This document shows, one piece after another, positions 7,367 to 48,085 of a stretch of DNA of 64,000 bases. Each line of letters begins with the position of its first letter. Within the stretch, counting starts at the first letter, position 1. Origin of the DNA: Ochromonas danica (lineage: Eukaryota > Sar > Chrysophyceae > Chromulinales > Chromulinaceae); contig VKHL01000024.1 of NCBI GenBank assembly GCA_015146655.1, positions 62,001 to 126,000 on the forward strand. Reading direction: 5' to 3'. The notes beneath the pieces are model-generated. The model ran no database searches. It was given only the letters and a program-made list of their open reading frames with translations, and was not told the DNA's origin. The translations under genes and the position numbers were made by a program.

Positions 7367-10142
7367 CTACGGCACGGGCTCGTCATCCAGCTCATGAGGC
7401 TAATACCAAAACACAACAACAAGATGAGAATATGGCCAGAGGTAGCATAGCATAGGGGGACAGGGAAGGGGGTGTTTGCCTACCTGGAAGAGCGAGAGGT
7501 CGAATTCGTGTCGATGGAGTTGATTCACGTTACTTTCATTATCAGCTTCTTCTCGTTCTTGTTCGGTCATGAGTGCTCGATGCACAAGATAGTCTTGTCT
7601 CTTCAACTGCACCACCACCTCTGGTGGTACATCATCCACGTAGAGTGAGAAGACAACCATGGAGATGAGAATAACATATTGGAAACCAATAAACAGCCAA
7701 ATCATGCCCACACCAGAGAAGGTCAGCAACTCCATCGTGAAACAGACAATGCCTGCATTGGTCAACACGGAGATGATGGCTGTCATCTGCAGAATGACTA
7801 GCCACGTGCCAATATCTTGAGCACCGCTAGGCACGACTCGTCGCATGAACTTCATGAGCTTGTATCCATCAGCACGAATCTCAATATAGTTGCTAATGTA
7901 GGCTAATAGAGGTGCTATAGGACAGGCAGAGACGAAAAGTGTGACAAATCCAAATTGAACGAAAATCTGCGCGTAATCCTCCAAAACACCTAAAGAAGGT
8001 TTATACTCTTCTAATCTCTTTTCTAATTCAGCTTTCGATGGCTTTTGTACCATACGATTTTGTTTAATAGCTTCAGTATATTGTGCTTCTTCTTTTCTCT
8101 CACGAAGACGACGATTGACTACAAGGGTCATATAAGTGGAGATCTTGTCTAACGTGAGCTTGGAGGCAAAGATGATTGCTAATTGATAAGCAAGTTCTAC
8201 CATGCAGGGACCTTGACAAGGATCACCCAGGTTACTCTTCACGAAAGCGATAAAGAACAGCGAGGCGTAGGAGTTAATGAAACTAAAGGCAAAGAGTTTG
8301 ACAATGAGAGAATCGTCATACTCTGTGTCCGTCCTATTGAAACATTACAGTTTAACACAAGATGAGAATAAGACAACACGTCGAAATAGACAGTTAGACA
8401 GACAGCAGTTAGCTGCTACAGTATTCCACAGTATTCCTGTGCATGCATCAGAAAACAGGGCAGACCCGGAAAAAGGTATTATGTTCTGAAAATTCAAAAT
8501 AGTGTTTAGTTTTGGAGAATGTTCACATTGGATCCGATGTACAAAACCAACCATTTTGAAGTCAAAACCCTGTTTTCTGGTGCACTGCTGGTATTCTATT
8601 ATTACTCCTTCCTTACCTGTGATTCTCCTTGTCAGTCATTGTTATGGCCATACCCGAATAGATCGAGTTCAACACAATAATCTGAATAGCACTTAGAATA
8701 GATACTCCAGTATTACCTGATGACTTGTTATTATCATCATCTACTCTTTCATGGACGAGATACTGCAAATAGAAGATAGCGGAGACACAAGCGATGACAA
8801 GAAACATCATACCAATAATCACTACCGCAGAATGAAGAATCTTGCGAAACTGATCAGCTGGAGAGACGAATTTGATAGGACGACCATCAATGTAGGAGAA
8901 GGATGGACTACCCACGAACTCAGGTCTCTCAGCTTCGTTCTCCTCGAAGCTGGACATGCCCCACTCCATAGCCTTGCGAGACTCTTGGCGCTTCCAATAT
9001 TCAATCATTAACTGTGACCAGAAGGAGACGAAGATACAATAGAATGGAATACTATATCCTGCCAGCAATGCCTCATTGAAAGACTGTGTAATAGCAGTCT
9101 CGATCATCATGTCCAACCCCACGAGAACTCCAGCCACCGAGAGAGGCAAGAGCCAAGTGGTGTAATGAGCTGTAAACTCAAAATAAAGAGCTACTTTCTC
9201 TCCTAAATAGTCCTTCACCTCATCGATAGGTTGTTCCCAAGGATTAACTTTCCAATTGAGCCAAACACGAATCAACTCCTCACGGCGCTCATAATCATGC
9301 AACGGGTAGTAGGCGATGATATGGTCAGTATGTCCTTCACTTGAATCATCAAGTAATTTGCGTAGTTTCAGCTTACAACATGATGGTTCATCAGCATCGA
9401 TGATGTCCATGATCAACTTGATGCGTAAGATAGCTGAAAAGGGATGATTTAGCCCATCAGCCTTGGCATACATGGGCGCTTTATCTTTCTTATAAGGAGC
9501 ATAGATATACTGATAAGGAGGTAAGCTAGTCATGTCTTCATTATCCATTATAGGCTGGCGACGATTGTCAATATTTTTGCGTAGATAGTCAGCATCTAAT
9601 TGGACGAGTGTTTCACGCAATTCAGCATGAGTTTGTAGACGACTAAGAGAGGCACGGATCTTGATATAGATTTCATCTCCATCACCACTAAGAAAGCTAT
9701 AGGTTTGTAAACCTGCTAAGAAGAGACGCTCCATGACCTCCTCGTAGAACTTGCGCTGTTCCTCGGCAGTCTCTTTTCGTTTGGCTTCTTCTGCTGGGGT
9801 CTCGTTCTCTGGGACAAAGTCATGGTTAGGAAGGACGATACAAACATCCCATCGATAGCCTTCGTTAGGTTGGAAGTCAGCTTTGCCAGGTTGTGAGGCA
9901 CCGGTTGCAGTGCTGGCTGAGGAAGTAACACTGTTGGAAATGCTGGGTCGATGAGATGCAGACGAGGTCATAGGGTTCATCGTTGTACTTATACTAGGTC
10001 TGGGATAGGAAGGAGAAGTAGACATAGGAGAGATTTGGGTCGAGTTTGGACGACCTAATTCCACTTCGTGACCTCTATCATCCAATAGCTTTTGAGAAAA
10101 ATCTTGCTTCGTTCGTTTTAATTGCGCTTCTTTACGCTTCAT
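7367..10142 (-). CDS. Anoctamin / TMEM16-family membrane protein
   Basis: There are three exons: 10142-8617, 8333-7484 and 7399-7367. Introns are 283 and 84 nt, both GT-AG, and the joined frame encodes 802 residues. TMEM16 proteins are dimeric calcium-activated chloride channels or lipid scramblases of plasma or internal membranes. The N-terminal 300 residues carry the cytosolic anoctamin region, ending in the family signature Y-L-G-E-K-V-A-L-Y-F-E-F directly before the first membrane helix (Y-T-T-W-L-L-P). About eight to ten hydrophobic segments follow. The first junction restores the conserved run N-H-R-T-D-T-E-Y-D-D-S-L-I-V-K, and the second adds a short polar tail (P-H-E-L-D-D-E-P-V-P). 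The start is the first ATG, with a basic N-terminus and no signal peptide. Channel versus scramblase activity cannot be told from sequence alone. It is divergent from the ArfGAP-like gene (375 nt apart). Confidence 0.92.
8448..8580. mobile_element. MITE-like insertion in anoctamin intron 1
   Basis: The 133-nt segment has terminal inverted repeats TCAGAAAACAGGG (8448-8460) and CCCTGTTTTCTGG (8568-8580), matching at 12 of 13 positions. It is flanked by direct TGCA at 8444-8447 and 8581-8584. It has no coding capacity. It makes up nearly half of the 283-nt intron, which is unusually long for this window. The four-base duplication is short, so chance cannot be excluded. Confidence 0.5.
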
Positions 10143-21609: not shown

Positions 21610-22888
21610 ATGGCACCTAAACCACAAGTCTTTAAAACTCCTGATGGAAAAGAGTTCACAGATCGTAGTCAATGGAAGGAGTATATGATGTCCACCTTCT
21701 ATTCCTTCAAGAACAAAGTGGATGAAGTCCAACCTTTGATTAAATCTCCTGGTACTATTGATGGACAAGTCTTTGATATTGCTGATTGCAAGAATTCTAC
21801 TCTGGTAGTTCTTGATTTTACAGAACAAGTTCAAATTGATCAATGTGTTAATTGTCGCATTTTTATTGCAGCTTGTGCTAGTTCTATTTTTATTCGTAAT
21901 TGTTCCGGTTGTACCTTTTATACTGCATGTAGACAACTTCGTTTACGTGAAGTAACTGACTCAACCTTCTATATCTACAGTATGTCTGAAGTTCATATTG
22001 AGTTCTCCAATACTTTACGATTTGCACCGTTTAATGGTGGCTATGCAGAACATGCTCAACATCTTCAGAAAGCCAACTTAGACCTGGCTAGAAACCTCTG
22101 GTATGATATCTATGATCATAATGATCCTGGAAAGACTCATGCCAATTGGTCTTTATTACCAGAGGATCAATATGAAGCTCCATGGTTCCCTGCTGGAAGT
22201 CCTTGTGACATTGCTGTTCCTCGTACAAAGCCAGGATCTGTTCAAATCGATAAAGAAGAGAGTATGCAAAGCTTCTCAGTGCAAGATATGGTCAATGATG
22301 CCAGGAAGTTGGGTAAGGTACCTCCTGCTCCTGTAGCAGCGAGTCAAGTGCCTCCGCCCCTCCCTCAGCCTGTGGCACAACCTCAAAGTGATGAGGAGCA
22401 GATCAAAAAGGTCATTGCTGCCTTCATCCGTCTTACCAAAGGCTCCACTCTCAATGTAAGCATAGCTGCTATTTGCTTGAGTCAATGAACTCATGTGATG
22501 GTGCATGTTGTATGGTGTACGCCATGGTTTAGGGCATCGTTGGGAAGGAGTTCAATCTGTTCCTCCCACTTGGTGAGCATGCCAATCAAGAAGAGTTAGA
22601 AAGCAAAGCTTCTTCCAGCCCTCAAGAGATTATTGATTATGGTGAGATTGTAGTTGCTGCTTCTAAGGACCTTGCCTACAGCACCGCGCTCGCCCAGGAA
22701 GCTCCTGCCGCAAACAAAGGCCCCGCAGACCCCACCCTTGCTGTACTCTACACTCTCGTGCTTGGTAAGAATGAAGGTCAATGGTTAATTGTGCATGCCC
22801 AGAAGACTCTTTCTTTCCCTTTGTAGATTTCTTGAAGAGGGAGGAGAAAGGAATTGATGAAAGTGTTAGCCATATCCATAATGCGTAA
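21610..22888 (+). CDS. RP2-like protein with tubulin-cofactor-C (TBCC) domain
   Basis: There are three exons: 21610-22455, 22533-22764 and 22827-22888; 379 residues. Residues 45-150 form the C-CAP/TBCC beta-helix (repeats such as D-C-K-N-S-T-L-V-V-L-D and C-V-N-C-R-I-F-I-A). It continues with the RP2-type signature A-C-R-Q-L-R-L-R and a S-N-T-L-R-F-A-P-F block. RP2 is a GTPase-activating protein for Arl3 in cilia, using an arginine in the Q-x-R-x-R segment, and that arginine is retained. A Pro-rich linker follows (residues 235-255). The C-terminal part, where RP2 has a kinase-like fold, is divergent. An N-terminal acylation site is not obvious (M-A-P-K-P). If the last intron is retained, a stop occurs at 22824. 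The spliced end overlaps the converging glycosyltransferase gene. Confidence 0.82.
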
Positions 22889-24474: not shown

Positions 24475-27400
24475 ATGATAATTGAATTGTTCTTTGTGAT
24501 TTTCCTGGTCTTCTTGACATCATGTTGTCATGAAGCTGCTTTCACATGTCAAGGAACTTCCTACTCTGCTGCCTTGAGTAGTTGTCCTGATGGAGGAGCA
24601 CAAAAAGTCTCCTCTGGTGGAAACGTCACGATCAGAGTCATCCGAGCAGTGAATTTGTTAAATAAAGACTTTAGCGGACCCGCCGCAGGTGTCTCCGATC
24701 CTTATGTGAGATTCTCCGCTGGAAATGTCTCTGTACGAACACGAACAATACGCAATACGTTAAATCCTCATTGGCATGATGAATATGTTTCCTTGGGATT
24801 TCTTGGCTCAGCCACTCTGATCACAGTGGAGATGTGGGATGCAGACTCAGGGCTAGAGTTCAATGATGATCTCATTGCACGGACTACCTTCCGTGTTCCC
24901 TTCTGTAGTACATTTACTGCAAATACTTCGACAGTGAAATGTGCAGATCCATTTCAATGTAGTTCTGATGATTCCATGTGGCATTCCCCCACAAGGAAGC
25001 ATTGCAATGAGTCAGGATTTGTCAACTTCTTCCCATCCAAAGCTTCTTGTGCTTCTGGGAGAGGAACTTGTTTATATTTTGAAGTAAATATTGTTCCTTT
25101 TCAAATAAGTGTTGATTACACCTATCCAAATGCTCTATACAAGAAGCCAGTGGTTGGTGCATTGGGGACAATTACCTCAGCGTCCTGGACTTCAACTTTT
25201 TCTCTTCCATTCATCGATGTAACTATGTATTTGGATCCAAGCGCTGCAGCATCAGCCAATATGAAGGGTGCTCTTATGTTACGCAGTAGTAATGCAGACA
25301 AGAGCTATGGTGCTTATAATGCCATCAAATACTATGCTTCCGTCAACTTTCCTGCCAAGATCTATCTGTGCAGATTCAGTGCTGATAATAGTGGTGGTAT
25401 CCCCGAATGGATGAGTAATGACTTTAGTTCACGCTATCTTCGCATTTATCGCCTCCTCATCAGGTCAACCACCAAGTATTTTGATTGCTTTGTGCGTGAT
25501 GATCCTGGAACTGTAAAGAATCAATGGGGAGGTGTAGTTTCAGATCCAATGACCTTTCGCACCAATACGCTCCCTGGTCTAGATGGAAACACGGTGTCGG
25601 AGCAGAATTCTTATACTTATAACTATATTGTATTAGCTGTGCCAGAAGTTGTCGCAAAACGTGAAGAAGATGTGACTATTGTCTATGATATGTCAGCTTT
25701 CATGACTTTCTTTGGCTCTTATGGCCTTGTATGGTGTTGGTTTATGTTTCTTGTGGTTAGATTTTTGTATAAAATTGGTTTCCGTTTGGATCGTTTGTCG
25801 AACTTCTTGGTCAGTCGTGTGCTAACAGGGGAAGATCGAAACTTGATTGCGACTCTCTTCCTTTGCAATCACGATAGCCCATCCAATGTAGAATTCCGCT
25901 CCCATCTGTATCATGCACGCAATATTTTGCTTTTCCTGATCTTCTTGCCTTTCTTTCTTCTCATTTCTTGGGGAATGAGTTGTGCCGCTCAAGTTCGACC
26001 TCGTGCTCTAGGTATTGGCCTAACCTTCATTGGAAGCAGTCTTATCTTCCTTTGGTATGCGTTTAAACTTTGGCAACGAAGTCAATGGCGTCTGTCAGCC
26101 ATGACTGTTGCCAGTTTCTATGCCTCCTTGATCTGCTTTGTTCTCTTCATGATTATTGCCTTGTTTGTCGATCCTGCTGTCTTGCACTATGACGCACATG
26201 TCGATATGGCTGGTCTGTCTCTTGTTTTCGGAACAATAAACTGCATTCCGCTGATTATGTTGATATTCAAACAAGACCGCTCGCAGAAGCTTTATCTCGA
26301 GCTCGTGATCCGCAAGTTATCTGATGCCTTGCAGGCCTTCAAGAGTCCCGCAGGCACCACCAGCAATACTACACCTGTCATATCACCCACCAAAGAGTTA
26401 CAGATTAATCGCTTGTTGCATGGCCTTCTGGGAGAGAAGTACACGATTAATCCAAAGTTGCCTGCACTACGATATGCAGCTGTTCTGGAAGATTGCAAGC
26501 CGTCTTTCAATTCTGTTCAAACTGCCACAGCAGCTCCAGCATCAGCAACCATTGTTGGTGGGACAAAGACTGTGAAGGAAGGAGAAACGGAACAAAATGA
26601 TGAACAACAAGGTGAAGAAGAAGAAGGTTTGATTGCTCGATTGCTCACAGAAGAGCGAAAGCTATATGCCTTTTCCATTGCTATTCTTCTCATTTACCTT
26701 ATCATTGCGGCGACTACGACAGCTTCTCCATCTTTAGCATTTCTCAATATCTGCTATATGGTGCTGTTGGATTGCTTACATTTATGTATGTCCAAAGGTG
26801 ACAATGCCTGGTCTCCAGGATTTAAATGCATGCTTCTTATCTTGGGTCGCTTGCTTGTCTGTGGGTCTCCACTCTCACTATGGATTTTGAATTACAGTAC
26901 TTGCTATATAGTCTATGCTTTGGCACTGTTACACGAGGCAATGCAGGCTTATCTGCCTTTAATATCCTCCAGACGAGCAGGAGAAATTGTATTTGGAGGG
27001 TTGGATGCTTCTTCTTTAAATATTCTAAAGGATCTCCTACAAACTGAGGATATGGCTGGAGGGCCAGCATTTGCTTTAGGTCTTCTAAGCGCTTTCTTTG
27101 CTGCTGCTATAATCATAGCGTCTTTCATGGCAGACGCTTCTTCAATCGACTCCGATTTACTCGTTCCTATGTTAGATGTCTGGGGTGGTTATTGGCACAG
27201 TTTTGTATTCGGAGTGTTGGGCTTTTTGGTGACTGCAGTGGGTGGTCTTCTAATGGCTACGCAGCGTGCTTTTCATCTTCATCGTCACAATTTGTTGCCT
27301 CCTTGGGCACGCGAAGCTTACTTTTTCCGACGTGAGATTGGTCTACCTATTACTCTCGCTATTGGTAGTGAGTTGGCAATATTGTTTTCGGGTCTTCTTA

Positions 27401-30400
27401 TCTATGCTTTAACTCGAGCCGCTGCTGTTCTGGTGGGTGCTGTGTTCATTCCTATTATTTTTCTCTGCTTGGGAACATCGTATCAATACTGGATTGCCAA
27501 CGACTACGATTTGGTGGTCTGGCCAAGACCAAGTGTCAAAAAAGATGTAACATCGTCTGCCTCAGCCACGTCTGGTTTCGGTGTTGGGAAGACTGCTTCC
27601 ATGTCTCTCGGGTATTCCACGAAGAAGAAAAGCGCTGATGGAAACCGTCCTGGAGACCCTTCCGATGCTGATTTAGAGCAAGCTTTCAACATGATTGAAG
27701 GGTTATTTGGAGGAACAGAGAGTCGCGGAGTAAACAACGTCCCTCGACCGGGCTCACGGAATAGTCCCAGTCGTCCTTCCAGTAGTGCATGGACTTCACT
27801 TCCCGAAGAGACACAGCCTCAAAGTGAAGTTGTACCTTTCGACCATGAAGAGCATCCTGATGGAGAAGATGAAGAAGAAAGACAAAAGAAGGAGGCAGCG
27901 CCAGAGAAGACTTTGAAAGGTTTTGCTTTACCTCCTTTGCAACTTGCTGCTGGTACTTCCAGTGCACCTGTGGAAGCGATCAAAATGCCTCCATTGCCAC
28001 TTAAATCAGTGTTGCGCAGAAAGAGGCAGAAGATGAAGCCTTCGCTGCAAAGCGCTGTACCTCTCATAACAGATTTGCGTACACGAGACACAGCAGCCAG
28101 TGCTGATCAATTTGGTAACAAACAGAACGATGTCTTGGATGTAAATGACCCATGGGCACAATTTGAACTAACGGAGGAAGAAGAAGTGCTTATACGCAAG
28201 GCGAAGAAGAAAGGCGTGGCCATAAAACAAGTGAAGAAAGAACCCACTGAACCGTGGGCAAAGCGAATACAACGCTTTGTGAAGAAGAATCCCATTCTTG
28301 GCAAGATCTACTACTATACTCTTGGTTGGATGGATAATGTCAAGGTCTTCCCAGAGAACTACAAGCCTGATTTAGAACAAGGGTATCAAACAACAGATAT
28401 TAGTGGTGTGGAGCAAACTGAAGGGGATGGTAATACAGTGGAACTCTTCACTAGTTTAGATCAGATCGAAGGAGAAATGCCAGAAGGAGGAGAAGGTGGA
28501 ACAACTGCACGGCAATCTGGAGAGTCTGCGGTCTCTCCAAACACCAAGATGATAGGATCGAAGAAGACATCGCAACGTTTACCACAAGATGGTGATGAGG
28601 AAGAAGAAGTTGATGTTGACAAGCTGTCTTTCCAAGAAGCCTTCTTCCTGGGCTATCTGACTTCCGAGGAGTACCTTGCTGTAATGTCATGGTATTTAGG
28701 TCTCTTCTTCATCATGCTTATGGGTGTAACTTTGGGGGTAACTGTAGCTCCACCCTATCTTGGCAATATTATTTGGATCTCTATTTGGCTTCTCTTGCTT
28801 GTTTTGGTACCAATTGTTAAGTACTTTAAGACATATAGCTGGGATAGCACAATGACTAGAATGTACTATGTTGCCGGTGTGTTGCATTTCCTGTTTTGTC
28901 TCATTTTCTTTGTGACTATCATGCGTGTTGATCTGGGCAAGGTTGGGACACTCTGGATCTTTGATTTCTTCTTGTATTTCCCAGTTTTTGTTTATATCAT
29001 ATTTGCCGCATGGCGATGGACAGATGGTGGCTTTAAGAAACCAGAAGACAATATCAATCGCTCAAGTCCTTCAGCAAGTACCAAAGCATCTTATCAGGCA
29101 GACACTTCCAATCCTTTTAAGGATACCATACAAGTCTTACAAACATTTCCTTCTCTTGTTGTTGCAATGATCTTATTAGTCTGGCAGTTCTATATTTTTG
29201 CTAATATCACATCTGGATCAGCTCTTACAATATTTTTACTCGCTGTGATCCTCTTCACTATCTATCTTCGTGATTGGGCGGATAATGATCATTTCCTCTC
29301 ACCTGAATTGGTCTCGTTGGGAAGATGGATGATCTATATCACTTTAATAGTCACCTTTTGTGTGGCTGCCTTCCGTGAAGAAAATCCAATCTTCCCTCTT
29401 TCTGTCTTCTTCTATACTGCAACTGTACCCTTTGTATTACGATTAGTGGGACGAATCATGAGTTTAGAGGCTGATAGTTGCTTCTTCTTTGCACCGTATC
29501 TCTTCCCCGTTTATTCTTATGAACCTTCATCACAAGATGTTCTTGATGAGAGTGAAAATGCTATTGCTGCTGTTTATGTAGCTTTATTAGCTATTTTATG
29601 GGGAGCAAGCATGACTATCTTCTACTACCCTATGCACGTTGGCATTGCCTGCTCTTGTGCAGTCCTTCTCTTCTCAGTGGCAGTTGCTGCAGTCTGTATT
29701 TCTCATACCCCTCGGCAATTAGCTAAATGTCAAGCATTAGTTGATGTTGACATTATTAAAGGGGCTGCAGAGGCTGCTAAGAATCGTGCCAATGACCGCA
29801 AGTTGCCACTGAATCTTGAGATGAAAGACTATCAGACTAATGAGGAAGTTGATGATCAACAACAGCAGTTAGAAGGACAACAAGGCCCTGCGAAGAGTTT
29901 ATTAGAGAAGCTAAAGGATCGCTCCTGTTTTGAAAACTGCATTGCACTTATGGCAGATGTAAGATCTTTGAAATATGTCAAAGAAGATAAACAAGCATCA
30001 TCTCTGGCTTTGGTTGGCAATGCCGAAGCCACAGGTGGTGGTGGTGCACCAGAAGATGATGACAAGGATGAATATGAGCTCACATTTTATGAGCGTATAG
30101 TCGTACGTGTTAAGTCATTTATGCGTGATCTCTACGAACTGTTACCTGTCTCTCGACTAGCAGGTTATCGTCGACATAATCAGGCACCTTTTGGTCCGGA
30201 TGATTTACCATTGGAGATCTTCTATACTGGTCGTGGACCTTTTGGTCTATTAGGTCCTGAAGGTCTTTGGGCGTCTTGCTTCCGAAAACTTAAAACAACT
30301 CAACATTTTGCATGGCTCTATCGTCCTTGGATGGATCAATTTGATGCACAGGGTACTCCTTTAAATTATCTTAAGCTCGAAGAGGACGTGGACTATCCGA

Positions 30401-33052
30401 CCATCTTATCGCGCTCCTTAGAACTTGATCTTGCGATTGACTATAACTACCGGGAGGAAGTTCGTTGTGGAGTACACTTTCTATTGTGTGTGTTGGTTGG
30501 CGCAGAGGCACGCTTACAGAGAGAGACTGTGTTGTTCCAGAAGTTCTTGAGAGAAAATCGCTTTCGTCTGGCTGCTAACGGTATCTCTCCCCCAAAGGTA
30601 AGTCATCCTTGTTGTTCTTTATTCTTACTAAGAGGATTACTAATACACTTGTTTGTCTGTATGATAATGGTTGGTTTAATAGGATATCTTCAGCAGCGAG
30701 TCTTATGCCTCTGTTAGTATCCCTTTGACAGCAGTTTGGCTCAGTACGCTCTCTATTGATGATCAGACACGGTTCCACACTCTAAAGGCTACATTTGATG
30801 GGGAACAACGTGAAAGAGATCGTCTCATTACCCAAAGTGATGAGGAAGCCTTAACTCGTGCCACTGCTGTGCGTTCTTGGCATATTGAACGTGATGCTGC
30901 CTATCGCTCTAATATGCAGATGGCGATTGCACAATACCGTGAACAACGTATACAATTGTTTACTGAGAGTTTAGATGGTCCTGATCGTGTCAAGTTCATG
31001 GCACGCAAAGATCATTGGATAGCAGAACCTGACTGCTATGTAGATATGAAAGACATGGAAGTCTACGAACGCTATAAGGCGGTGTGCTTGACCGATACTC
31101 GTAATGAACTACTTGAAAATGCTGTATTTCAACTTATGGAGATTGAAGCAGCACAAAAGGATATTCGCTTGGGTGAATATGGTCGTGCTTATCAATATGT
31201 TGACAGTGACTTCCCACCTTCCGATTATTCCATTGGCGAGGGAGAGGTTGCAAGCTATGTACTTGGATGGCGTTGTGCACCTGGAATTGTAGAGCATATG
31301 CAATTATTTGATAATGGAACACATCCTGATGATCTTTGCACAGGAGTCTTTGGAGATGATTGGTTGGTGAGTGCTATTAGCATGTTGTTGGCAGCTGGAG
31401 CCTTTGGGAAAGGTCTCATTAACGATCGCATTCGCTTCCTCTTCTTGCCACATCCTTCCAACGCAGATGGTGAACCTTCAGTAGATACGCAAGTTGGTGC
31501 CTATGCTGTGAGAATCTTTCGTAATCATGACTGGATTCCTGTTCTGGTGGATGACTTGTTGCCCATGCGTAAGAAGGAACATTGGACAACAACCAATCGT
31601 GGCATGGCAAGTGCACATTGTAAGGAAGGCCGCGGTATCTGGTTATCACTCATTGAAAAAGCGTTTGCCAAGTATTATGGCTCTTATGCCTTGCTGCAAG
31701 AAGGTTTTGTTCATCATGCCTTGGAGGACTTGACTGGATGTGAAGCGGAATGCATTCCATTGCATACTTTCAGTCAAGGAGTTCATCGTCGAGCTCTATG
31801 GCAACGTCTTTTGAGATACAAAGGCAATGGATATATCCTTGGTGCGGGCACGGGTGATGTTCGTCTGGCTGACAAAGACCTGCCTAGTCTAGGCGTTTGT
31901 TTCAACACCGCCTATACGATCTATGATGTGAAACAAGTTGATGGATACAAGTTAATCAAGTTACGTAATCCTCCTGGTGAACATGAAGAATGGCGTGGTG
32001 ATTGGTCTGATCGCTCTTCAATGTGGACTCGTCGTTTGAAAGCCAAGCTGTCCTACCATGACAATCCTCTGGACAACACATTCTTCATGTCTTTTGATGA
32101 CTTTGTCTCTGTCTTTCGTTATCTTTACGTCTGCAAGTATTATAACCCACAGAAATGGTGTGAGAAGAAATGGCTTGGGTTTTGGAAACGTCCTGATGAA
32201 AGTGCCGTGGAGAAGATGGATTTGATGAATCAATTCATTGCAGAGCAAACAGACAATAGTCTAGTCTCTGGATCATTGAACAGTGGTCAACAGAAACTGG
32301 ATGGTGAGTCCATGGAGCGTAAGAAAGCTGTTGCACGATTGAATAGTGCAGGTGGTCTTCCTTCACGTCACAATCCAGCATGTATTTTGGAGAACAATCC
32401 ACACTATTCCCTACGTATTCATCGTCCTACAGATTTGCAGATCACCGTAACACAATGTCTTCCAGCTGGGGTAAGACAGAAGCTTATCATTCAGCCATTT
32501 GCAATTCTCCTTGTCCGCAATGATCATAGTGAAGTAGCTCGTCGTATCACTCGATTGAGAAGAGAAGATGTGGTGGCAAGTTCTGGCGAACCTCAGGAAT
32601 TAAAGAGTCAGACTGTCTTCGTGTCTGGGCTGCGACCAGGTCTTTATGTCTTGCTTGTCGCTGCTTATGTGGCGGGAATGGAAGGTCATTTCCAAGTTAC
32701 TTTAACCTCCAATTACCGCACGGAATTCCTTCCCATTTGGCCTCCTGCCTGGATGTTACGTGAAAGCAAAGAGAAGCGTAAAGAAAAGGAAAGAGAACGC
32801 AGTCAATTACCCAGCAGTCTGGCGAGTATTGACCGTAGTCTGGAAGATGGCGCTGGACTGGGTGGTATGACTGCCTCAAAGTCTAACGCAGCCCTTCTCT
32901 CCCAGCCAGGCATGCAACGAGTGGGTGTGATGTTCCGTCAAGGATTGAAATCCCTTTTCGGGAAGGCAGGAGAGGATGACTTTGATGATCCTGCAGAATT
33001 ACCTGAAGAGGAAGAAGAACATGATATGGAAGCAGGGAAATCAAAACCTTAG
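24475..33052 (+). CDS. Giant C2 / multi-membrane / calpain-like protein (DEK1-type), catalytic Cys and His lost
   Basis: There are two exons: 24475-30597 and 30683-33052, with an 85-nt intron; 2,830 residues. Order: signal peptide; C2 domain (residues about 48-145, D-P-Y-V-R-F and N-P-H-W-H-D-E); two blocks of membrane helices, about 23 in total, separated by a roughly 400-residue charged loop; coiled and linker region; calpain protease core; C-terminal calpain-type beta-sandwich (domain III) and acidic tail. The plan matches plant DEK1 and the membrane-linked calpains of alveolates and stramenopiles. In the core, the usual G-D-C-W reads G-D-D-W (Asp codon at 31358-31360). The G-H-A-Y histidine position reads N-T-A-Y (Thr at 31907-31909). 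Asn in R-N-P is kept (31967-31969). It is therefore probably non-proteolytic, acting as a scaffold or sensor. The whole 8.5 kb frame is otherwise intact. Confidence 0.92.
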
Positions 33053-33545: not shown

Positions 33546-36284
33546 ATGCAGCAGAAGGAGCAGCAAAAACAGGAGGGTGAAGATGACTTTAACTTTCCTT
33601 TCCCTCCTTATCCACAGCAGAAAGCACTCATGCGAGCTATTTTCAATTGTATCGATCAGAAAGCTGTGGGTTGTCTCGAATCACCCACTGGGACAGGCAA
33701 GACACTCTCCATGATCTGTGCGTCTTTCTCCTGGCTTATAAGAGAAGAAGATCGTCTTTTGTCAACACCTTCTCCTCCGCCTCCATCTAGTGCTAGTGGT
33801 AGTGGTGGTATGGATGGGAAGGGCAATGCAGTGGATTGGCTGGAAGCACTTTTACAACAAGAACAACAACAAGAACAGCAACAGTCCCAGCAGTCATCGA
33901 CTTGTACATCCTCTTCTCAAGCGACTATTGCAAGAGAACATTATCAACGTGTTGAAAAACTTATTACACGAGCAAATATCACACAATCGACGAAAACACA
34001 TCCTCATCCTCATCCTGTTACTACTACTACTACTACTACCATCCATCCCTCCTCCTCTACTACCACTGCTACTACCACTGCTACTACTACTGCTACTAAT
34101 AAGACGACAGTGGAAGAAGATGATGAATATCTCCTCGATGCCTATGAGAGTGAGAATGAAAAGACCAAGAAGCAACAACAACAAGACGATGATGATGACG
34201 ATGATGATAAGGATGAGGTAGTAGAAGACTATCGAAAAGTCCTCTCTCTACCGAAAATCATTTTCTCTTCACGTACACATAGTCAATTGTCACAATTCTT
34301 ACAAGAAGTTAAACGAACAATCTTTGCCTCACGATGTCATGGAATACTCTTAGCATCACGTAAACAACTTTGTCTACTACCATCAGTACGTAACTTGACC
34401 TCTGAAGCAGCTATTAATGATCGTTGTGAAGATCTTCGTAAAGGAAGAAAACCTTCAAAACGAAATCATGAGACAGGAAGAAGTTGTAAACAAGTGAAGA
34501 AAGCTATCTCTTGTTGTTCTTATCATTCTGCTAGTGCAGAGCAGGAAATGGCATGGAGTTGTTTGAAAACCTTGTCAGATATTGAAGACCTTCAAACTTT
34601 GGGTGAACAACGTGGAGGTTGTCCTTTCTATGCCACGAGACGAGCATTGAGACATGCTAACCTTATTGCATTACCTTATGCTCTTCTTGTTCATCATGAG
34701 ATGCGTCAAGCAATTGGTTTAGAGATTGATCAGAACACCATCGTTATTGTAGATGAAGCACATAATCTTGCACAGGCTGCTAGTGCAGTTTATTCTGCGA
34801 CTTTGTCAGTGTCAACCTTGATGATTGCAAGTCAAGCAACCAAGGATTACTTACAAGCATATCGTCCTCGACTCTCTGCTAAGACTGTCTATTACCTCAC
34901 CTTGCTCTTCACTGTCTTGAAGAAGACGAGGGACTACTTCCTTGGCATTGTTAAAGCAGGGAGAGAATGTCATGTTGTTGTTGGTAGTGATGGTGGCAGC
35001 AGTGATAACACCAATCTGAAGCGGTCCACCAGTTCAACGGAGAGCCCATTACCTTCTCGCCAGCACATGGTGACGGTGAATGACTTTCTCTTCGCCTCTG
35101 GCCTGGACCATATCAACCTCTTCAAGCTACAACGTTTCCTGTCAGTCAGTCGTCTACAAAACAAAGTGGGTGGCTTTGCTGAGAGAACAAATAATAACTC
35201 TATGAAAGCACGTGCTACATTAAGACTAGCTTTACAGTTTGTCTTCTGCTTGACAAGTCAAGAGGGAGATGGGCGAATCATCTTAGAATACTCTTCTTCC
35301 ACACTTCAGACCTCTCTTATTCCCACTAGAGATGATGATAAGGAAGAGGATGATAGAATGATCGTAAAGTATGTCTTACTCAATCCTGGTCGTCCTCTAG
35401 AAAGTGTATTGCGAGAAGCTCGAAGCGTCTTGTTGGTGGGCGGCACACTTCGTCCCTTTGCACATCTCACAACAACTTTACTCTCCTCCTTGCCTCCTAC
35501 TCGCTTGCGACTCTTCTCTTGTGGTCATATTGTCTCACCAGATCAGATTAAAGTCGTTGCGACAGGTAGTCGAGAGGTAACACACAAGACTCGATTGTCT
35601 GCTGAGGTAGAGGAAGAAATCTTCGAGATGTTACATGAACTTTGTCGTGTTGTCCCTGCAGGTCTTGTTGTCTTCTTCACTTCTTATCAATACATGTATA
35701 ACTTAGTGAATAGATGGAAACAAAGTAAGAGATGGGATACTCTCAGAATGTTGAAAAACGTCTTTGTTGAGAGTCATTCTTCAACGGGAGAAGGAGAAGA
35801 AGACGATGGGAACCATTCCTTACCTCTTTGGGATAGATATTGTATGGCTGTTCCTCATGGAAAAGGTGCGATGTTGTGTAGTGTAATGGGTGGACGACTA
35901 TCGGAAGGCATCAACTTTAGTGATGATCTTGCTCGTGCAGTCGTTGTCATTGGTCTACCTTTCCCCGACCCACGAGACCTTGTGTTACAAGAAAGAATCA
36001 AGATTTATCGATCTATTCAGAGGCAAGCAGGGTTGGATGATCGCGCTGAGGCGTTTAGTGAGGCATTGTGTATGACCAGTGTGAACCAATCCATTGGACG
36101 AGCGATTCGTCATGCCGCTGACTATGCATCCATTGTCTTGTACGACCGACGCTACCAAACAGAGCGCATCCAAAGCCTTCTACCCGAGTGGATTCGCGGA
36201 TCTTTAGTGCCGAGATCTTCTGCGCTCAGTGTGCAGGAAGCAGTCCGTGAAGTGGAAGGATTCTTTGCTCATCGCAAACGATGA
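33546..36284 (+). CDS. DDX11/CHL1-type iron-sulphur DNA helicase
   Basis: Intron-free frame of 912 residues. Superfamily 2 helicases of the XPD/FANCJ/DDX11 group unwind DNA 5' to 3'; the DDX11/CHL1 branch helps replication forks and sister-chromatid cohesion. Visible motifs: Walker A S-P-T-G-T-G-K-T; motif Ia S-S-R-T-H-S-Q-L; four Cys of the Fe-S domain (C-L-L-P, R-C-E-D-L, C-C-S-Y-H, C-P-F-Y); Walker B D-E-A-H; motif V/VI S-E-G-I-N-F and Q-S-I-G-R-A-I-R. Between Walker A and motif Ia sits an insert of about 150 residues made of Gln, Thr and Asp runs, placed where DDX11 and CHL1 also carry an insert. The branch assignment (rather than RTEL1 or FANCJ) rests on this insert and on overall length. 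All catalytic motifs look functional. Confidence 0.88.
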   Translation: MQQKEQQKQEGEDDFNFPFPPYPQQKALMRAIFNCIDQKAVGCLESPTGTGKTLSMICASFSWLIREEDRLLSTPSPPPPSSASGSGGMDGKGNAVDWLEALLQQEQQQEQQQSQQSSTCTSSSQATIAREHYQRVEKLITRANITQSTKTHPHPHPVTTTTTTTIHPSSSTTTATTTATTTATNKTTVEEDDEYLLDAYESENEKTKKQQQQDDDDDDDDKDEVVEDYRKVLSLPKIIFSSRTHSQLSQFLQEVKRTIFASRCHGILLASRKQLCLLPSVRNLTSEAAINDRCEDLRKGRKPSKRNHETGRSCKQVKKAISCCSYHSASAEQEMAWSCLKTLSDIEDLQTLGEQRGGCPFYATRRALRHANLIALPYALLVHHEMRQAIGLEIDQNTIVIVDEAHNLAQAASAVYSATLSVSTLMIASQATKDYLQAYRPRLSAKTVYYLTLLFTVLKKTRDYFLGIVKAGRECHVVVGSDGGSSDNTNLKRSTSSTESPLPSRQHMVTVNDFLFASGLDHINLFKLQRFLSVSRLQNKVGGFAERTNNNSMKARATLRLALQFVFCLTSQEGDGRIILEYSSSTLQTSLIPTRDDDKEEDDRMIVKYVLLNPGRPLESVLREARSVLLVGGTLRPFAHLTTTLLSSLPPTRLRLFSCGHIVSPDQIKVVATGSREVTHKTRLSAEVEEEIFEMLHELCRVVPAGLVVFFTSYQYMYNLVNRWKQSKRWDTLRMLKNVFVESHSSTGEGEEDDGNHSLPLWDRYCMAVPHGKGAMLCSVMGGRLSEGINFSDDLARAVVVIGLPFPDPRDLVLQERIKIYRSIQRQAGLDDRAEAFSEALCMTSVNQSIGRAIRHAADYASIVLYDRRYQTERIQSLLPEWIRGSLVPRSSALSVQEAVREVEGFFAHRKR

Positions 36285-46252: not shown

Positions 46253-48085
46253 TTAAGATTGTGCGAATCCTTTAATAACTTCTTCGGCATCATCAACCGT
46301 GAGATCATATGCAAAACTGCTATGTAAGCCTAATGGGAAGCTTACTCGAGGAATAGGGACACGATGGATGGGTCCCTTTGAGATGTCCTTGGCATCAAAG
46401 ATGACTAAACTAGTCTCTGTGCGATCACTGCTACCATCAAACAGCAGAGAGACCAAGTAACCATCATCTTCTTCAGTATTCGCATCCTCTTCAGACTCAT
46501 CCTCATTGCTTCTTCTACGCTTGACAAAGAGAGGCTCGCCGAGGAATTCATGTTTGGCAGGGCGGTAGACCATCTCTCTCACACCTGATCGCCCTTCCTC
46601 CAGAGCTTCAAAATCGATTTTGACAAATGCTTGAAATGGTGAACTCACTTGCTCTGAGCTACCCGTCATAGCATAGCAATATCGATGCTTCTTACCCATA
46701 TAGTCTGGGTTGATTGTAGAGAAATCCAGAGCTTTCCTGGAAAGTGTTTGATGACTGGTTTGCCACTTGCCGTCCTCGCCCTTCTTGAGGGAATAGCGAG
46801 TGAGCAAAGGATAGGGAATATTAGCAGCATAGTCCATATCCCACCAAGACTCTTGAGGAGTTGAAACACCAACTTGTAGATTGTCACAACGAAAAGAGTC
46901 AAAAACAATTTCCTTGCCATCCCCTTTAGGCTCGTATCCATTGACAAAATGGAAGACGAAATGAGGGTCTAAATCAACGACTTCGACCTCATCTCTCAAA
47001 TTCCTAAAACCACTCATAGTAATGAAGAGAGATGACTAACAAATCTTACAAACCTTGGGTATATCTCTTACCTTGGGATGAGATAGAGCTTGGCCGGTCG
47101 GTCAGCATGGAAAGACATACTTTCCGCTGGTGCTTTCAAACCTAATACTATAGGCCAGACATTTAACTCCACAGGAGCTTGTAATAATAAATAATAGTTC
47201 TTAGTGATCACAAAATCATGAAAGAATCCAAAACCAGGAAGAATCACTTCTCTTTGTTGGACAGTTTGAAAAAGATCATCAAATTCATAAAATGTCACAG
47301 TACAACTAGTTAACTCTTGCTTCGTTGACATACCAACTAGATGATGACGATGTGCACAAATCTTAGGATGAGCTGTAAATGTATGTAATGGATGAGATAA
47401 CAATCCTCCTAAAGTACTTTCTTTCTCTTCCATAACTGATAATGTGTTAACATCTAATTCATATGGTTTTCCTGCTTCATATAAGGCTAATAACTTCTTA
47501 CCCCAATAGATGACATTCGTATTAGCTACATTCTTAATCTTTGTATCCAAAAAGTTCGTCCAGATACCACCTGGTTTGAGTGATCGAAAAGCGCCGCGAA
47601 AACAGACGCGTTGGGCGGATTTTTCTTGTAAATAGCCTTCTGTATGAACAAAGCGATTACGTAAGAAGGCTTCACCATCTTTGAAGGTTATAGCAATCAC
47701 CATTCCATCACCATCAAAGGGATGAAGTAGTTTATCTTGACCAATGTCAAATTTCGATGGTCCATTTCTGATTGAAATTGGTTGATACGTAGGTTAGACG
47801 AGGGAGAAGTGGGTGGATATACTTGAAGATTACCTACCTATAATAGGTACCATGGATATCAGTGGGTAGGTCAGTAGCGATGACTTGAGCAACTTCTTTC
47901 GTACAAGTGCGATACCCACGCTGCCAGGCTGTCTTATCATAAGTCAGTGGAGAAGAAGAAGGATGAGATTTCAAAGTGAATGATCTGGATAGTAAGAAGG
48001 TTCTTGATCGAAAAGAGACTACAATCAAGCTGATAATATCGACTAATAGGAAGCACCATAGAGAGAAGAGGTGATAGCGGGTCAT
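46253..48085 (-). CDS. Carotenoid cleavage oxygenase (CCD/RPE65 family)
   Basis: There are three exons: 48085-47838, 47767-47072 and 47012-46253; 567 residues. An alternative acceptor nine bases further (exon from 47003) also keeps frame and would give 564. Family members are Fe(II) enzymes that cut carotenoid or apocarotenoid double bonds with O2, using four His ligands. Conserved blocks: D-I-H-G-T-Y-Y-R-N-G-P at the first splice junction, H-P-F-D-G-D-G-M, A-H-P-K, F-F-H-D-F-V-I-T, F-H-F-V-N-G-Y-E, and a C-terminal L-G-L-H-S-S-F. The N-terminus has a strong hydrophobic helix (residues 5-27) with no clear plastid motif, so ER or plastid entry are both possible. Substrate specificity cannot be read. 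The gene body has normal length for the family. Confidence 0.92.

Follow-up and report, generated by a model that had tools for sequence, protein, structure and literature searches.

A giant C2-membrane calpain with a substituted catalytic set in the chrysophyte Ochromonas danica

What does a giant membrane calpain do when its core no longer carries the residues of a protease? The question is raised by a gene in a 64,000-nucleotide stretch of Ochromonas danica DNA (GenBank assembly GCA_015146655.1, contig VKHL01000024.1, positions 62,001 to 126,000 of the forward strand), referred to here as the window. On the + strand of the window, exons 24475-30597 and 30683-33052 join into one stop-free frame of 2,830 residues. 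A sequence-only reading had taken the product for a DEK1-type calpain that lost its catalytic Cys and His. In the interpretation that we favour, and hold to be reasonably probable, the gene encodes a non-proteolytic stramenopile C2-membrane calpain, the membrane part of which would sense or relay signals while the dead core, together with domain III, would bind partners.

Catalytic columns of the calpain core

We aligned 38 calpain cores, of which 34 served as references: 32 segments from 31 bacterial loci and two calpains of the same genome (L009 and L010). The remaining four rows, the window protein and three further calpains of its genome (L011, L012 and L013), were not counted as references. 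Denominators vary between columns, as several bacterial rows stop short of the His and Asn columns. The catalytic columns are as follows:

31340..31342, + strand: Thr2261 (ACA), at the oxyanion-hole Gln column (Q in 33/33 occupied reference rows)
31358..31360, + strand: Asp2267 (GAT), at the catalytic Cys column (C in 33/33)
31907..31909, + strand: Thr2450 (ACC), at the catalytic His column (H in 26/27)
31967..31969, + strand: Asn2470 (AAT), the catalytic Asn, kept (N in 26/28)
31973..31975, + strand: Pro2472 (CCT), at the Trp column of Asn-Pro-Trp (W in 25/27)

Alignment to solved calpains likewise places Asp2267 on Cys, Thr2450 on His and Asn2470 on Asn. The sequence-only reading, which had noted GDDW at the Cys motif, Thr in place of His and the Asn of R-N-P retained, is thus borne out at all three positions. 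The non-consensus reference rows are L046, which differs at His, Asn and Trp, and L049, which differs at Asn and Trp. We take the Trp after Asn-Pro to be a further member of the active site. Among the Cys, His, Asn and oxyanion Gln expected of an active protease at the canonical columns, Asn alone is retained.

The loss of the catalytic residues is certain, and the catalytic set of this membrane calpain is lost to an unusually complete degree. The core nevertheless scores 177.9 bits against the Peptidase_C2 profile and belongs to the calpain family by profile and by fold. That protease activity has been lost while the calpain fold was retained, as proposed earlier, is well supported by the sequence. 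The oxyanion-hole role of Gln is described in PMC4631099, and its loss on top of that of Cys and His makes a non-proteolytic reading stronger than it would be from Cys and His alone.

Layout of the protein and its relatives

Around these columns, the gene and its product are laid out as follows (residue limits marked ~ are approximate):

24475..30597, + strand: exon 1, an open frame for residues 1-2041, with the hydrophobic leader, the C2 domain, the membrane part and most of the linker
24622..24897, + strand: C2 domain, residues 50-141 (PF00168, E 3.7e-13)
25702..27474, + strand: first block of hydrophobic segments, residues ~410-1000 (hydropathy)
27475..28692, + strand: large hydrophilic loop, residues ~1001-1406 (sequence and hydropathy)
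28693..29700, + strand: second block of hydrophobic segments, residues ~1407-1742 (hydropathy)
29701..31195, + strand: linker, residues ~1743-2212, with the intron inside
30598..30682, + strand: predicted intron of 85 nucleotides, the GT-AG pair of which yields the single open frame
30683..33052, + strand: exon 2, residues 2042-2830 and stop, with the linker end, calpain core, domain III and tail
31196..32137, + strand: calpain core (Peptidase_C2), residues 2213-2526 (PF00648, E 3.2e-52)
31634..31636, + strand: Gly2359, at the Glu column of calcium site 1 (E in 25/32 bacterial rows and in all 5 further own-genome calpains aligned)
31712..31717, + strand: His2385-His2386, an adjacent His pair in variable alignment columns, as described for stramenopile membrane calpains
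32360..32752, + strand: domain-III-like beta sandwich, residues 2601-2731
32753..33049, + strand: tail, basic then acidic, residues 2732-2830 (sequence)

The leader comprises residues 1-19. The C2 domain matches C2 chains in the PDB (best E 5.7e-7) and carries Asp65, 75, 122, 124, 131 and 132, acids that stand at the usual positions and among which calcium would be bound. Hydropathy gives 23 hydrophobic segments at thresholds 1.2 and 1.4, 21 at 1.6 and 19 at 1.8, so that the earlier description of an intact 2,830-residue frame with about 23 helices and domain III stands. No Pfam family rose above the cut-off in the two linker pieces scanned.

Where does such a protein belong? Membrane calpains fall into four types (PMC10762896). 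Type 2, that of DEK1, conserves the whole catalytic triad, whereas members of the triad may be missing from Type 1 and from the C2-bearing Types 3 and 4 (oomycetes, Ectocarpus). In the brown algae and oomycetes described in PMC13413365, A, S or T always occupies the His column, and Cys gives way to S, T, A or G. Upstream there are one or two adjacent His; Asn is mostly retained, and the brown algal form is C2-TML-CysPc-C2. The C2-TML-CysPc arrangement of stramenopiles had been noted earlier, as had the fact that protist calpains often lack catalytic residues (PMC3563603).

The window protein shares the architecture of this class (Types 3 and 4 and a proposed fifth), namely an N-terminal C2 domain, many spans, a linker and a CysPc core. 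It also shares the substituted Cys and His, the retained Asn and an adjacent upstream His pair (the pair matching in spacing only), and, with the brown algal form, a domain-III or C2-like end. Differences from the published descriptions are that Asp stands at the Cys column (no paper on such a calpain with Asp was among the open-licence papers listed in literature searches), that the upstream Cys appears to stand at another spacing, that the WW domain of oomycete Types 3 and 4 was not found here (the C-terminal 230 residues gave no Pfam match at E up to 10), and that a single calpain sequence is reported for each brown algal genome as against several in this one. Inactive-looking membrane calpains are thus already known from brown algae and oomycetes, and the window protein extends the class.

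The label DEK1-type, used in the sequence-only reading, is therefore imprecise. Plant DEK1 and the window protein are alike in being giant, with about 23 spans, a central loop, a linker, a C-terminal core and domain III, whereas DEK1 as described keeps its catalytic residues, needs its Cys and has no N-terminal C2 domain. Mammalian calpain-6 (calpamodulin), presumably without any membrane part, shares with the window protein a calpain fold that lacks the catalytic Cys. In the human protein, as described, Lys takes the place of Cys, and non-proteolytic roles are reported for calpain-6 (PMC3563603).

We also examined the other calpains of the same genome (31.19 Mb, 337 contigs), where Peptidase_C2 matches occur at at least eight places. 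The calpain core is common to the window protein and L009 to L013, the own-genome calpains being 20-28% identical to the exon 2 protein. The full set of Gln, Cys, His, Asn and Trp is present in L009, an 887-residue frame with no hydrophobic segment at threshold 1.6 and weak EF-hand matches below the cut-off, and in L010. L012 (contig C31) resembles the window protein in carrying Asp at the Cys column and has Arg for His and Cys for Asn; L013 (C217) has Lys, Tyr and Asp for Cys, His and Asn, respectively. In L011 (C54) Cys is replaced by Ser and the frame stops ahead of the His column, its letters beyond the frame end not being trusted. Together with the window protein, L011, L012 and L013 bring to four, out of six own-genome cores extending to the Cys column, the number in which Cys is absent. 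L014 is a partial calpain. L015, a short fragment on contig C1 (5038-4928, - strand), resembles L009 by eye; its six-frame match contains a stop, and it is possibly a pseudogene copy.

The exon 1 protein matched itself and one C2 domain elsewhere and no own-genome calpain, and so an exon-by-exon search found no second membrane calpain in this assembly, which may be incomplete. Of the active paralogue whose presence had been raised with the earlier reading, there are thus two calpains with a full catalytic set (L009 and L010) and none found with a membrane part. L010 was considered as a second membrane calpain and is probably not one: in its gene as far as reconstructed, the two membrane frames upstream of it, with 4 and 5 hydrophobic segments, match amino-acid permeases, and the frame adjoining its core has none. 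The window protein adds to the giant membrane calpains of catalytically dead look a case from a compact algal genome with intact calpains alongside.

Function and alternative readings

How might such a protein work? With a cleaved leader and an odd number of spans, the calpain would face the cytosol and the C2 domain the exterior. By analogy with the proposal for DEK1, the membrane part may sense or relay a membrane, wall or calcium signal. The dead core and domain III could then, in the manner of calpain-6, offer cytosolic partners a binding platform subject to calcium. There would be no cleavage, nor is the calpain expected to free itself by autolysis in the way proposed for DEK1. A substrate-trapping role, suggested in the sequence-only reading, is to our mind somewhat argued against by Asp at the Cys column together with the loss of the oxyanion Gln. 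Should the class as a whole turn out to consist of sensors or scaffolds, the view taken from DEK1, that the protease acts as effector, would fail outside plants.

Calcium ligands were transferred from the list in PMC4631099 by hand counting along the alignment to 1tl9. Site 2 retains Glu2477, Asp2484 and Asp2505, with Thr2507 as in L009 and L010. We take Asp331, the counterpart of Asp2505, to be a ligand, and the numbering offset between calpain-1 and calpain-2 is presumed as well. Site 1 retains Gly2253 and Asp2258; a fully retained site 1 was considered and dropped, since counting along 1tl9 places its Glu column at Gly2359. Judged from these residues, a calcium response of the core is possible.

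Several observations weigh against a maintained, non-proteolytic calpain and are gathered here. Calcium site 1 is short of one Glu, at Gly2359. Asp at the Cys column falls outside the S, T, A or G described for brown algae and oomycetes. In moss, DEK1 with Cys changed to Ser behaves as a deletion (PMC10762896), so that an inactive DEK1 is without known function there. Viral contigs queried with exon 2, two alignments and the exon 1 frame gave no orthologue. None was found by tblastn in phages or plasmids either; the 31 loci from one scan of genome_contigs were all bacterial, with no eukaryotic orthologue among them, and no brown algal or oomycete sequence was among the matches in the collections searched. 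Finally, the concentration of loss at catalytic columns is suggestive and its test weak. Among columns at least 90% conserved, four of five catalytic columns are changed as against three of 17 others (Fisher p 0.02), with p spanning 0.006 to 0.053 across the thresholds and reference sets tried. The five-column set was chosen only once the alignment was known, and the patterns used to fetch references included some non-catalytic columns and were built partly from the window protein. With the pattern columns omitted, 4/5 against 2/11 columns are changed (p 0.036); restricting the catalytic set gives p 0.07-0.20 for Cys, Gln, His and Asn, and 0.22-0.40 when Gln is also dropped.

Could the gene then be in early decay, its activity having drifted away from a protein no longer needed? 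One calcium ligand is altered along with four catalytic columns, calpains with an intact set are present elsewhere in the genome, and the clustering of the changes at catalytic columns is weakly supported. On the other hand, the frame runs through 2,830 codons without stop or frameshift, and its synonymous codon choice is native-like, with z values against GC-matched (guanine-cytosine-matched) random synonymous codons of +14.6 for exon 1, +10.5 for exon 2 and +7.4 for the core, within the range of six neighbouring genes that form the training set of the measure. An open frame of this length with native-like codons argues against an old pseudogene; codon usage is slow to decay, which tempers the point. 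A like loss is also reported from distant stramenopiles (PMC13413365), and we consider decay highly unlikely. An assembly or base-calling artefact has negligible probability: for each of the four changed catalytic codons, the closest canonical codon is at least two base changes away, so four separate codons would each have to be wrong by that much inside an intact frame. A division of labour in which the membrane part does the work, as a mechanosensor or channel-associated module, and the dead calpain tail has a purely passive part in regulation or assembly would fit the large membrane part of the window protein and the finding that in Arabidopsis a mechanosensitive calcium current depends on the DEK1 membrane part (PMC5647327). 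The core still reaches 177.9 bits, which suggests that it matters, and we regard this division as unlikely.

A relocated active site is the remaining alternative, a Cys/His-His site having been suggested for the membrane calpains of brown algae and oomycetes, in which the Cys and His spacing is nearly identical (PMC13413365). Here, it would be built from an upstream Cys (2239 or 2260), His2385-2386 and Asn2470. These residues exist, the His pair at approximately the published spacing, and to that extent the core does hold Cys and His elsewhere, the circumstance that would have undone the reading of an inactive calpain. The Cys spacing appears not to match: the two Cys lie 28 or 7 residues ahead of the Cys column as against 38 or 40 gapped-alignment columns in PMC13413365. 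Nor are the residues widely shared, with Cys at column 2239 in 1/38 cores (the window protein itself) and at 2260 in 2/38, and His at 2385 in 2/38 and at 2386 in 1/38. A structure model was predicted from a 22-row alignment in which the window segment was joined by 21 of the 32 bacterial references; its mean predicted local distance difference test score (pLDDT) over the core is 60.9, and hence only better-scored stretches were used. In this model the His pair lies within a helix and pLDDT around Cys2239 is <50, while the central helix begins at Asp2267, and both Thr2450 and Asn2470 are located beside strands. We take the latter arrangement, with Cys at the start of the central helix and His and Asn beside strands, to be that of catalytic residues in the papain fold. 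The missing oxyanion Gln weighs against the relocated site as well, and so bears on the suggestion made for the class. A non-canonical site in the window protein is hardly probable in our view, and the wider proposition, that stramenopile membrane calpains including this one are relocated Cys/His-His proteases with no need of the canonical Cys, His and oxyanion Gln, is very hard to credit.

Neighbouring genes and further observations in the genome

Upstream of the calpain gene and on the same strand lies a TBCC-like gene (tubulin-binding cofactor C, E 1.5e-30; 21610-22488, +). Its position is probably due to chance and is noted since calpain-6 acts on microtubules. Directly 3' of the calpain gene is a DEAD_2/Helicase_C_2 helicase (33546-36284, +). 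The window also contains an anoctamin-like gene (8613-10142, -; E 2.6e-44) and a carotenoid-oxygenase gene of the RPE65 family (46253-47703, -), which is split across two frames, probably by an intron.

Elsewhere in the genome, two partial silicon-transporter matches lie above the cut-off, and there are 47 chlorophyll-binding matches, some of them exon pieces. A search for elicitins gave no match here, and as it had no hit anywhere it carries little weight. Four of the chlorophyll-binding matches, on contig C224 (8673-16382), recur every 2,407 bases with identical scores and are probably a recent tandem array. The genome is that of a photosynthetic eukaryote, and the antenna matches of one chlorophyll-binding gene, taken with the calpain architecture, make a stramenopile probable. 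In the PDB, this gene's top seven rows all belong to the entry 9vfj, followed by XLH12, VCPI-1 and FCPI-1, which we take to be stramenopile antenna proteins.
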